Shown one piece after another: positions 6,523-34,431 of a DNA stretch of 64,000 bases. The position numbers and the translations under genes are program-made. The stretch lies in NCBI RefSeq assembly GCF_024399475.1, contig NZ_CP101620.1:2647608-2711607 (forward strand). The letters are read 5' to 3'. The notes under the pieces were generated by a model. The model had not been told where the DNA came from. It was given only the letters and a program-made list of their open reading frames with translations, and did no database searches. How positions within the stretch are numbered: position 1 is the first letter of the stretch; each line of letters begins with the position of its first letter. The stretch comes from Allocoprobacillus halotolerans. GTDB lineage: Bacteria > Bacillota_I > Bacilli_A > Erysipelotrichales > Coprobacillaceae.

Positions 6523-8326
6523 TAAACCACCCTCTTAAATAATTTTTCTAATTCATAATCACTATAAAAAATAATCGTTGGTCTGCCATGAGGACAAACA
6601 TAAGGATTATCACAACGCATTAAATTATCAAAAATAGTTTGCATATCATCCTGTGAAAGATATGTATTAGCTTTTAAAGAAGCCTTACAGCTTAATGTCG
6701 CAATCGCATGATCTTGTAAAGCCACAACATCCAAATGGTTTTTATGTAAAACTTCTTGAATCATTGTATCAACAAAAATATTTTCATCTATTTTTTTCAT
6801 CCATAAAGGTAAACTTCTCACAATATAACCATGCTGTCCAAATACTTCCAAATGGATGCCAACTTGTTCTAAAAGTTTTTTCTTTCTTCCAAAATCAAAA
6901 ACTCACTCATTGGATATTCGAATTGTAAAGGCACAAGCAGTGGCTGCATTGTTAAATCAAGATGAGCAAATTTATCTTTATAGTATTCATAATTAATACG
7001 TTCTTGAGCCGCATGTTGATCAACGAGATACATTCCTTTTTCATTTTCGCCAATCAAATAAGTGCCATGAATCTGTACTTTGGCATAGATTTTTTCTTTT
7101 AATGGTTTTCTTTGTTCTTGAATCGGCTGTGTTACTGATTCGATATTCTCTTGTTTTTTATCATCATGATTTTGATATGTGAATACGGGTTCTTGAATGA
7201 TTTTTTCTTGAATGTCAACTGTTTTTTCTTCAACAGGTAAAACTGGAATTACAGGTTCTTCAATGGTAAAACTCATTTGATCAAGCTGTGGTTTAAAGAC
7301 TTCCCTTTCGGTTTCTTTGTTTTTAGCCTGATATGTTAAATTCACTTGTTTTAAAGTATCACTAACACCATTATATATTAAATCTCGCAGTTCGTATTCT
7401 TTAGAAAAACGGACTTCCAGTTTTGATGGATGAACATTGACATCAACCAGATAAGGATCCACTTCAATATTCACCACAGTAATAGGATAACGATTATCTG
7501 CCAAGTAAGGGCGATAAGCAGTATTGATGGCATCAATACTCATCACATTTTTAACATAACGATGATTGACTAAAGTAATAATATTAGCTTTTGAAGCACG
7601 TGATGTATCAATCTTGCTGATATAGCCATCAATCGTAAATTCATCAGTCTGCAAATGAAGAGGCAACATATTTTTTGCTGTTGCAATTCCGTACATATTA
7701 GCAATAACCTCTAGTAACTGTCCCTTCCCATTGGTTTGAAAAATCAGTTTATCATTATGATAAAGATGAAAAGCAATATGTGGAAAAGCCAATGCCATAC
7801 GTTCAACATATTGATGAATCGCAGCAAATTCACTATTGACTGATTTTAAATATTTTAAACGTGCTGGGACATTTTGAAAAAGACGTGTAATGGTGATTTG
7901 CGTTCCCTGTGGTAAATCACAGACACTTTCACTTTGATATTTACCAAATTCATAAACAATCGAAAAACCTTGTGAACCCGTTGAAGTTCTTAAATCAAAA
8001 CGACTGACTGAAGCAATCGAAGGAATGGCTTCTCCACGAAAGCCAAGTGTCATAATATTAAACAAGTCCTGATCATCTTTAATTTTACTTGTCGCATGTC
8101 TAGAAAAACATAAACGTGCATCCACCGGTTCCATACCTTCGCCATTATCACATACTTTAATTTTTTGCATCCCACCATCTTCAATAAAAACATCTATTTT
8201 TGAAGCCTTGGCATCAATACTGTTTTCAACCAATTCCTTGACAACACTGGAAGGTCTTTCCACCACTTCACCAGCAGCAATCTTATTAGAAAGAATATCA
8301 TCTAACTGTCTGATTTTTCCCATCAT
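6522..8326 (-). CDS. mutL: DNA mismatch repair protein MutL, frameshifted
   Basis: MutL couples mismatch recognition by MutS to strand incision and excision. The first 485 residues contain the GHKL ATPase: IAAGEVVERPSSVVKELVENS, DNGEGM and GFRGEAIPSI. A linker rich in Gln/Glu follows, then the start of the C-terminal dimerisation domain with DQHAAQERINYE. The frame breaks at an A6 run (6876-6881); adding one A gives RKKLLEQVGI and joins the remaining 109 residues, which contain the CPHGRPTI metal-site motif of endonuclease-type MutL. Corrected length is 601 residues, normal for the family. AAGGTGGTGAG precedes the start. The gene follows mutS by 9 bases. Confidence 0.95.
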
Positions 8327-13728: not shown

Positions 13729-14062
13729 TCAACTCTTTTTCTTCAATTCCAAGTTAATATCATCTTGAATTTGATTTAATAATGTATTAACTTCAATCTT
13801 TAAAGCCAAATAATTATAAATAAGTGGATTTTCATCAAAATCCTTTTTTCATTTGATATTCCTGAATGATTTCTTGACAATCTTCTTGACGATGTTTTGC
13901 TTGAACAATTTGTCGTTGTAAATGTTTTAATTCTTCCTCTAAAGCCTTTAATTCTTGATTGTTTTGTACAAGTGTTTCATATCTTTGATATTCTTTAACA
14001 ATTTCCTGATCTAAAATCCATTGATTTAAAGCTTTAGACTTATCTTGAATATTTTTATTCAA
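13729..14062 (-). CDS. ymcA: YmcA/YlbF-family regulator (Y-complex component), frameshifted
   Basis: Small helical protein of the YlbF/YmcA family. In Bacillus, YmcA, YlbF and YaaT form the Y-complex that affects RNase Y-dependent mRNA processing, sporulation and biofilms. The first frame is a coiled-coil-rich helix series (about 75 residues, ending QEYQMKKGF). At the A6 run 13844-13849 the frame breaks; here removing one A, not adding one, gives [20 protein letters not shown] and a normal helical C-terminus ending LELKKKS. Corrected length about 110 residues. I choose the TTG start because AGGTGAAG stands six bases upstream; a GTG three codons earlier is possible. It overlaps the miaB stop. 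Confidence 0.75.
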
Positions 14063-22009: not shown

Positions 22010-22342
22010 ATTGCTCACTCTGATAAGCCGAGTTCTGTTTTTCAACCGATTATTTATCTATGCATTGCATCTTCATGTTCGTTCGTTTCCTTACATGAAA
22101 CTCCCCTACCATAATTTGGGTTTCATCCTTGCAGAGTTTACCTCTTTTCACTCTTTTTTCAAAAGACATAGTTTCTGTGGCACTTTATGACTTATCAACC
22201 ATACCTGAATGGCTTAGGTCTTAGGTCTGTCGTTAGCTAAGCTACCTGCATTTATTAGATGCAGTACAAACACTACAATCATCACAGATTGTGGATGCCC
22301 GGACTTTCCTCTATTTCTAGCAATCGGTTCTCATGAGCATGT
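22010..22342 (-). ncRNA. rnpB: RNase P RNA, Bacillus type (class B)
   Basis: Catalytic RNA that removes tRNA 5' leaders. The minus strand carries the universal core GAGGAAAGTCCGGGC near the 5' end, AAAGTGCCACAGAAAC in the middle, AAACCCAAATTATGGTAGGGG, and ACAGAACTCGGCTTAT near the 3' end. The ends pair (TGCTCA with TGAGCA) to close helix P1, which sets the approximate borders. The layout with a GTGCCACAG segment and no large P13/P14 block fits class B. It fills the only long gap between protein genes (rodZ to gpsB). Ends are accurate to about ten bases. Confidence 0.95.
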
Positions 22343-32478: not shown

Positions 32479-33941
32479 TTAAAAATCTATGACCTCTGTA
32501 GCAATTGTTTCTTGAAAATATTGATCATGTTCTACAAAGAGTAATGTGGGTTGATATGTTAAAATAGTCTTTTCAATTTGCATACGAGAAAAAATATCAA
32601 TATAATTTAATGGTTCATCCCAAATATAGAGATGTGCTGGAGTTGCCAGTGAAATAGCTAACATGACTTTCTTTTTTTGACCTTGGCTTAAATTTTCTAA
32701 AGAAATATCGAAATGGGAACGTGAAAATCCTAATTTCCTTAATAAGGTTTTGACTAATGTTAAATCACAATCATATCGTTGAATCCAATCATCAAGTCGC
32801 CCATGTAAAAAAGTACAATCTTGGGGAACATAGGAAATTTTTAATTGACTACCTAGAACATATTGTCCTTGATATTGCATATTCTCACCTATAATAAAAT
32901 GAATAAGACTTGATTTTCCACAACCATTTGGTCCTTTAAGTAAGACTCTATCATGATTATGAATGGTTAACGATAAATCTTCAAAGACTTTTTTATCATC
33001 ATATGATAATGAGAAGTGTTGAAACTGAATCAATTGTTTTTGAAAATATTTTAAACAATGTATTTTTAAATCATCATATTTTTCAATATCCTTTAAAAGT
33101 TTCCTTTTTTCAGCAATGGCTTGTTTTTGGCGTTTTTCAATCACTTTGGAACGTTTCATCATTTTCGCTGCCATATGCCCTACATGGCCTTTATCAGCTG
33201 CACCTCGCTTGGATTTTTCAATCTGATGTCCCCAATTTTCCTTTTGTCTCCTTGAACTTTCCATTTTCACAATATCTTTCTTCAATTTCTTATTCATCAT
33301 GATTCCTCTTTCATCTTTTTTCTTTTATCATCATACCAGCTTGAAAAATTTCCACTTACAACATCTATGGTCGTTGGATTAATAGCCATCACATGATTAC
33401 AACAACTATCAATAAAATAACGATCATGACTCACTAACAAAAAACCTTTTTGAAGACGAAGATATTCAGCTATTTTTTGACGTGAATTTTGATCTAAGTG
33501 ATTGGTTGGTTCATCAATCAATAAAAAAGCATGTTCTTTCAAGAATAAAAGAGCTAATAATACTTTGGTTTGTTCGCCATGAGATAAAGTTTCAAAAGGT
33601 CGATAAAAAATATCTAAACCATCCATATCTAACTGATGAAGTTCTTTTTCTAATTGCCATTGTTGTAAATTTGGACATATCTCATAACACACATCTAATG
33701 TTAACCATTGAGGATTTTCTACTTCATAAGGAAAATAACAGCACCCTTCACTCATCATTATTTGTCCTTGATATTCCAATTCTTTCATCAAAAGCTTTAA
33801 AAGTGTTGTTTTCCCTCTGGCATTGCGTCCAATCAAAGCTGTCTTAAATGTCGTGTCTAATGAAAACGATACATCATCAAAAATCAATTCATAACTTCCT
33901 TCATAACCAAATGTCAAATGTTGAACTTGTATTAACGACAT
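32479..33941 (-). CDS. ABC-F ribosome-protection ATPase, Lsa-like, frameshifted
   Basis: Tandem-ATPase protein without membrane segments, 487 residues when corrected. The first ABC domain has GRNARGKTTLLKLL, LSHGEQTKVLLALLFL and FLLIDEPTNHLD; the second has GPNGCGKSSLIHFI, LSQGQKKKVMLAISLA and IWDEPLNYIDI. Between them a basic linker with the KMMKRSKVIEKRQ helix matches Lsa/Vga antibiotic-resistance ABC-F proteins, which dislodge lincosamides, streptogramin A and pleuromutilins from ribosomes. At the T6 run 33316-33321 one missing base breaks the frame (restored: KRKKDERGIMM). GGAGAGTGA precedes the ATG at 33939-33941. An attenuator precedes the gene. Confidence 0.88.
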
Positions 33942-33959: not shown

Positions 33960-34079
33960 CAAAATAAAAACGACAAGAAAATAGATCTTGTCGTTATATA
34001 CAAATATTCATGATAAAAAGAGAACTATTTTCTTGCATGCATAAAAAGATATGCTTATGTTAAATTTTTGCAAGAAAAT
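33960..34079 (-). promoter_or_regulatory. Transcription attenuator of the ABC-F gene (anti-antiterminator, antiterminator, terminator)
   Basis: Three mutually exclusive pairings are visible on the minus strand. Stem 1: 34069-34079 with 34027-34037 (perfect 11 bp), its first arm inside the leader peptide. Terminator: AACGACAAGA (33986-33995) with TCTTGTCGTT (33969-33978), 7-base loop and a T-rich tail (33960-33968). Antiterminator: second arm of stem 1 (34025-34035) with 33974-33984, a perfect 11-bp match that uses the terminator's 3' arm. A small hairpin (GCATA / TATGC, 34039-34054) sits in stem 1's loop. A ribosome stalled on the leader would free the antiterminator and let transcription reach the ABC-F gene. 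Confidence 0.85.
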
Positions 34080-34087
34080 TGATACAT
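34055..34087 (-). CDS. Leader peptide MYQFSCKNLT of the ABC-F attenuator
   Basis: A 10-codon frame from ATG (34085-34087) to TAA, with GGGAG seven bases upstream. Its codons 3-7 contain the first arm of attenuator stem 1, so a ribosome stalled here by an antibiotic would hide that arm. This is the layout of known leader peptides for resistance ABC-F genes. No similarity to named leader peptides is claimed. Confidence 0.7.
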   Translation of the reverse strand: MYQFSCKNLT

Positions 34088-34113
34088 CCTTCCACTCCCT
34101 TTCATCACTTGTT

Positions 34114-34142
34114 ATTATAGCTTTTTAGCCTTGTGATTTCAA
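34114..34142 (-). promoter_or_regulatory. Promoter of the ABC-F gene
   Basis: Minus-strand TTGAAA (34137-34142) and a perfect TATAAT (34114-34119) separated by exactly 17 bases, about 25 bases before the leader peptide start. Confidence 0.75.
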
Positions 34143-34152
34143 GGAAAAATGA

Positions 34153-34395
34153 CTATACAAGTTTTTGAATATCCGTAGGTACCTGATTATTTTGAATAAT
34201 TTGAATGATTTTATCCATTTGTTCAGGTTTGACATGTTTATGGGTTAATTGTGAAATCTTATTCACAAAATCTCGAATATTTTGTTCATCCTTTAAATCT
34301 TTATTTTGTAAATCATTTGCAAGAGACAAAATATCAGCTTTTGATACATGTGTTTTCTGTGACACTTTATCTAATAATTTATCTTGTTTATCCAA
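34153..34395 (-). CDS. spoVIF: Stage VI sporulation protein F-like
   Basis: 80 residues, mostly helical: LDKQDKLLDKVSQKTHVSKADILSLANDLQ, then DEQNIRDFVNKISQLTHKHV and QIIQNNQVPTDIQKLV. This matches the pattern of SpoVIF/YjcC (late spore coat assembly in Bacillus), including the closing helix and the PTD segment. The TTG start lies five bases after GGGTGA; an in-frame upstream part is less likely. It directly follows gpsA, a common position in this group. Confidence 0.75.
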   Translation of the reverse strand: MDKQDKLLDKVSQKTHVSKADILSLANDLQNKDLKDEQNIRDFVNKISQLTHKHVKPEQMDKIIQIIQNNQVPTDIQKLV

Positions 34396-34431
34396 TTGAA
34401 TCACCCATACTAATATATGCAAAATCAATCT

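Follow-up and report, generated by a model that had tools for sequence, protein, structure and literature searches.

The closest described systems are the ribosome-mediated attenuators of ARE-ABCF genes, in which a short upstream open-reading frame (uORF) such as MIN, MR[I/M], MK[L/Q] or, for Lsa(A), MAGN precedes the resistance gene (PMC10201436). In Bacillus subtilis, the uORF of the vmlR leader (MIN) lies in an anti-antiterminator and is accompanied by an antiterminator, an intrinsic terminator, and a downstream ABC-F gene; a ribosome arrested on the start codon would cover the 5′ arm, the toeprint is found 16 nt from the A of the AUG codon, and induction is abolished on losing the uORF start codon or its Shine–Dalgarno (SD) sequence (PMC9226507). 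The leaders of cplR in Clostridioides difficile (uORF MR[I/M]; PMC10201436) and of lmo0919/vgaL in Listeria likewise place a uORF in a 5′ hairpin ahead of a terminator, the lsa(A) leader of Enterococcus faecalis (PMC10201436) puts a uORF in control of the nearest characterised ABC-F subfamily to the one described below, and the logic of the vga leaders is shared as well. The same switch logic is found in the hflXr rli80 leader of Listeria, where the uORF also spans the anti-antiterminator region and encodes an RLR peptide (PMC6310831).

A leader with this logic lies at 34142–33961 on the minus strand of the window, the 64-kb stretch of DNA that was analysed. A sigma-A-type promoter, with the −35 hexamer TTGAAA at 34137–34142 and, after a 17-nt spacer, the −10 hexamer TATAAT at 34114–34119, precedes a ribosome-binding site, GGGAGTGGAAGG (34088–34099, SD-like GGGAG..GGAAGG), and a 10-codon uORF (34055–34087; ATG TAT CAA TTT TCT TGC AAA AAT TTA ACA TAA, encoding MYQFSCKNLT*). 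Codons 3–7 of this uORF contain segment 1, ATTTTCTTGCA (34069–34079), the 5′ arm of the anti-antiterminator P1 (stem 1), which pairs over 11 bp with TGCAAGAAAAT (34027–34037). Segment 2 (34025–34037) serves as the 3′ arm of P1 or, alternatively, as the 5′ arm of the antiterminator, in which CAAGAAAATAG (34035–34025) pairs with CTATTTTCTTG (33984–33974) over 11 bp, or 12 counting one G-U. Segment 3 (33973–33984), the 3′ arm of the antiterminator, overlaps the loop and 3′ arm of the intrinsic terminator (33969–33995), a 10-bp hairpin of AACGACAAGA (33995–33986) and TCTTGTCGTT (33978–33969) around a 7-nt loop, with a T tract at 33961–33970. An earlier note on this DNA had described the promoter, the 10-codon uORF with its ribosome-binding site, the three helices, and the T tract, and each was found at the length claimed, base for base; the helix coordinates also bear out its claim of mutual exclusivity, since P1, the antiterminator, and the terminator of this leader overlap. 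A SpoVIF-like sporulation regulator gene (34153–34398, minus strand) lies immediately upstream of the leader, and sequence resembling the end of such a gene also precedes the leader in congeners.

The arrangement is that of the ribosome-mediated ARE-ABCF attenuators, with a uORF and its SD, predicted to be translated, between promoter and terminator, three mutually exclusive helices, and a position directly upstream of an ABC-F gene. The parallel that the earlier note drew with vmlR and lmo0919 holds for the logic and not for the peptide. Compared with vmlR, the uORF here is longer (at least 6 codons, 10 in the window) and codes through the 5′ arm, and the downstream gene is Lsa-like, whereas vmlR belongs to VmlR/ARE2. 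From the lsa(A) leader it is set apart by the uORF, MAGN differing from the MYxFSC peptide of this family in both sequence and length. In contrast to the short uORFs of cplR and lmo0919/vgaL, to which the tripeptides of some distant Lsa-like relatives (MRN, MRK, MKK) are similar, the Erysipelotrichales uORF is a hexapeptide or longer, and no overlap of the terminator with the SD is predicted. The vmlR and cplR leaders have a translational layer of control, while here the main SD shows no sign of being released by the switch; such a layer was considered and found unsupported by folding, the mean unpaired fraction being 0.29 in the free state and 0.23 in the stalled state. The hflXr leader differs in its 14-aa uORF with RLR, its sensing of macrolide and lincomycin, and its HflX-type gene; the RLR (or RYR) motif is absent from the window uORF and from the MYxFSC leaders.

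Folding of the window leader with RNAfold, the check proposed in the earlier note, gave a minimum-free-energy structure consisting of exactly stem 1 and the terminator, i.e., the repressed state, at −34.8 kcal/mol (z = −3.8), a stability reached by none of 200 shuffles. The arrangement, defined for this purpose as three perfect, overlapping helices of no fewer than 10, 10, and 9 bp with a T tract behind them, did not arise in any of 3000 dinucleotide-shuffled versions of the leader, and scanning both strands of the 64-kb window in 40-nt steps turned up no second copy. No model in Rfam 15 matches the leader; elsewhere in the window, a Bacillus-type RNase P RNA (RF00011) lies at 22021–22336 (minus strand).

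The three stems are kept in orthologues, with covariation. Among 21 aligned related leaders, pairing was retained in 209 of 210 cells of P1 (99.5%), 249 of 252 of the antiterminator (98.8%), and 135 of 140 of the terminator (96.4%), and compensatory changes are present in the helices; in one species, L027, a single position differs in all three strands, with T>A in segment 1 matched by A>T in segment 2 and by T>A in segment 3. Sliding the partners by 1–3 columns lowered pairing to 43–64%, none of 500 column shuffles reached the observed pairing percentage or covariation score, and RNAalifold recovered P1 and the terminator from the alignment unprompted. All five genomes of the window's genus have TTGAAA or TTGATA as the −35 element and a spacer of 17 nt; a conserved −10 element precedes the uORF by 22–29 nt in most relatives, and a purine-rich uORF ribosome-binding site of the GGTGGAAGG type is found in their leaders. 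The leader peptide, whose absence from orthologues the earlier note would have taken as a refutation, is conserved too: MYxFSC is encoded in 20 of the 21 aligned leaders (MYKISC in L027), the family codons being ATG TAT xxA TTT TCT TGC/T and mostly then TAA; the peptide diverges further out. In the window's genus the stop codon is displaced, giving uORFs of 10 to 20 codons. The 20-codon uORF of L013 (G003) ends within segment 2, so that a terminating ribosome would cover that segment.

Within the order Erysipelotrichales, to which the window belongs, the covariance model built for this leader (R1) had a match at E ≤ 0.01 in 41 of 316 genomes. An Lsa-like ABC-F gene lay beside 39 of these matches; the remaining two were one beside a distant ABC-F gene (G190) and a marginal one with no ABC-F gene in the stretch examined (G227). 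Lsa-like genes without a model match occurred in 3 of 27 genomes of the window's family, probably Coprobacillaceae, and in 18 of 32 genomes of its sister family; a phylum-wide scan for the exact pattern found it in 3 of 392, all family members. Leaders of the same logic also precede Lsa-like genes in Clostridia, with MKKFSC, MRKISC, MYNFSCR, or MIIISCR. Across the sister family and Clostridia the uORFs read MKTVSY, MIKATF, MLKVLF, MKKFSC, MRKISC or only MRN, MRK, or MKK, these tripeptides belonging to distant Lsa-like relatives, and the RNA logic is the same. In L196, a uORF encoding MKTISC* stands before an Lsa-like gene with no obvious terminator, and control there might be purely translational.

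The gene downstream occupies two open-reading frames on the minus strand, an N-terminal part (ABC1; 33297–33941) that is cut off by a frameshift near 33322, in a run of A, and a C-terminal part with linker and ABC2 (32479–33300) in the −1 frame. Together they cover the NCBI Lsa-family profile end to end (residues 1–212 and 216–491), scoring, as separate halves, 299 and 339 bits on NF000167 (cut-off 750) and 191 and 235 bits on NF000355 (cut-off 380). The intact orthologue of a congener (L120:1016-2479) scored 637 bits over the full NF000167 profile, below the curated cut-off of 750, and 437 bits on the ribosomal protection-like ABC-F profile NF000355, above its curated cut-off of 380; its nearest solved structure is that of Lsa(A), 7nhk, at 390 bits, followed by a next best of 189. 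Because 637 bits falls short of 750, we call the gene Lsa-like and not Lsa, and its resistance spectrum is therefore not certain. The identification of an Lsa-like ABC-F gene in the earlier note is upheld by these profiles; that this normally single-frame gene is split in the present assembly had escaped it.

Most relatives carry the ABC-F gene in a single frame of about 490 codons, and all four other genomes of the window's genus have it intact. Against two congeners, the window gene is split by a 1-nt deletion near 33322, and seven further genes of the window, including mutS, mutL, a pgsA-like gene, and a penicillin-binding protein gene, are broken by single-base deletions. Frame breaks were noted near 6870, 10135, 11150, 20478, 23766, 25559, 32060, and 51870, often in homopolymers, with two more candidates near 13848 and 47200. 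These single-base breaks suggest an uncorrected long-read assembly, and because seven other genes are broken the same way, the ABC-F split is probably an assembly error. A programmed −1 frameshift was also considered: the A AAA AAG at the break (33300–33330, minus strand) is correctly phased for −1 slippage into the second open-reading frame, which also comes with an SD-like AGAGGA of its own and an ATGA overlap, but slippage at A_AAA_AAG near 33322 was set aside, as the seven other deletions and the intact congeners make assembly error simpler. In L026 (G035) and L029 (G038), drafts of one genus, the ABC-F frame is interrupted at about codon 282, in an A7/A8 run of the inter-domain linker, and in their near neighbours L025 and L033 it is in frame; the two breaks may reflect error, decay, or A-tract phase variation. 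The split in the window and these broken frames at an A run in two other species of the family could indicate that the locus is decaying in this strain and that the leader is a remnant before a pseudogene, a reading that we regard as unlikely given the deletions in seven other window genes, which point to the assembly, the perfect state of the leader itself, and the intact gene in four other genomes of the genus.

We conclude, with a probability of about 0.88 and on the strength of comparative sequence and folding evidence, that the leader controls an Lsa-like ABC-F ribosome-protection gene by ribosome-mediated transcription attenuation. We infer each of its functional elements, namely uORF translation, drug-induced arrest, the site of arrest, readthrough, and resistance. 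Without drug, the ribosome would translate the short uORF and depart, segment 1 would pair with segment 2 to form P1, and the terminator could then form, ending transcription ahead of the ABC-F gene. A drug at the peptidyl-transferase centre, predicted to be a lincosamide, pleuromutilin, or streptogramin A, would hold the ribosome on the uORF start codon or immediately downstream of it, where its footprint would mask segment 1, leaving segment 2 to take segment 3 as antiterminator and allowing readthrough into the ABC-F gene. The pairing of 1:2, 2:3, and 3:4 with a leader peptide is also the architecture of amino-acid attenuators, in which scarcity of an encoded amino acid stalls the ribosome and induces the gene; this explanation is very improbable here, as the uORF has no repeated regulatory codons, codon identity differs across families (MYKFSC, MKTVSY, MIKATF, MRN), and the gene controlled encodes a ribosome-protection ABC-F protein and not a biosynthetic enzyme.

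The proposed switch was modelled by keeping the nucleotides of the uORF as far as +16, the reach of the vmlR toeprint, unpaired in the 21 leaders. Under this constraint, mean pairing of the terminator fell from 0.94 to 0.22 and that of the antiterminator rose from 0 to 0.74, the footprint switching most of the leaders from terminator to antiterminator. In the window leader, the antiterminator is dominant (0.98–0.99) until the terminator is complete; once the leader is complete, the terminator is preferred at equilibrium even with a start-bound ribosome (antiterminator 0.12, terminator 0.87), and the same preference was obtained for L011, L012, and L034, so that the switch in these four leaders would have to be kinetic. 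In most relatives, the stretch that follows segment 2 is complementary to the SD and start codon of the uORF, and P1 would therefore also shut the uORF.

RLR-type leaders rely on macrolide arrest of the ribosome at a defined codon in a peptide-dependent manner, and the nascent MYxFSC chain together with a drug could likewise stall the ribosome at a defined codon, making the peptide the sensor. On the protein tree of the 21 family members, Tyr2 shows no steps at nt 4–6, of which nt 5–6 lie outside the upper stem with no obvious pairing reason for their constancy, while codon 3 changes its amino acid 9 times; Ser5 and Cys6 are unchanged and residue 4 changed once, and uORF sequence is known to modulate vmlR induction (PMC9226507). 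However, segment 1 includes codons 4–6 together with the wobble base of codon 3, which are held by pairing anyway, and other peptides accompany the same RNA logic in the sister family and Clostridia. Codon 3 has 11 changes at its first two bases and none at the third, which is in the stem, a pattern that is the reverse of that expected from coding constraint, and codon 2 varies freely over all 39 leaders. Because the RNA logic persists where the peptide diverges or shrinks (MKTVSY, MIKATF, MRN, MRK), the comparison favours a vmlR-like arrest close to the start codon, and we consider peptide-specific sensing improbable. We read the constraint on the uORF as acting at the RNA level, with at most a lineage-specific peptide preference. 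Also improbable is a reading in which lincosamides, pleuromutilins, or streptogramin A arrest the ribosome through the fMet-Tyr-x-Phe-Ser-Cys nascent chain itself; if so, it would represent peptide-context sensing for a drug class regarded as stalling ribosomes at the start codon with little context.

The type of switch is thus known, while this version, with its own peptide and conserved in dozens of related species, was found without description in the literature searched. MYKFSC was not found in that literature, which covered non-subscription articles, and nothing specific was found in the literature on clindamycin resistance and lsa in Clostridium ramosum. The leaders constitute a covarying, order-wide family of putative antibiotic attenuators in Erysipelotrichales, an order for which no such description was found. 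Whether uORF peptide sequence matters for start-site-acting drugs is a question raised previously (PMC10201436), and since uORFs of between 3 and about 20 codons share a single RNA scaffold here, they provide a natural series in which to test it. For the organisms themselves, the finding predicts drug-inducible tolerance to lincosamides, pleuromutilins, and streptogramin A in Erysipelotrichales.
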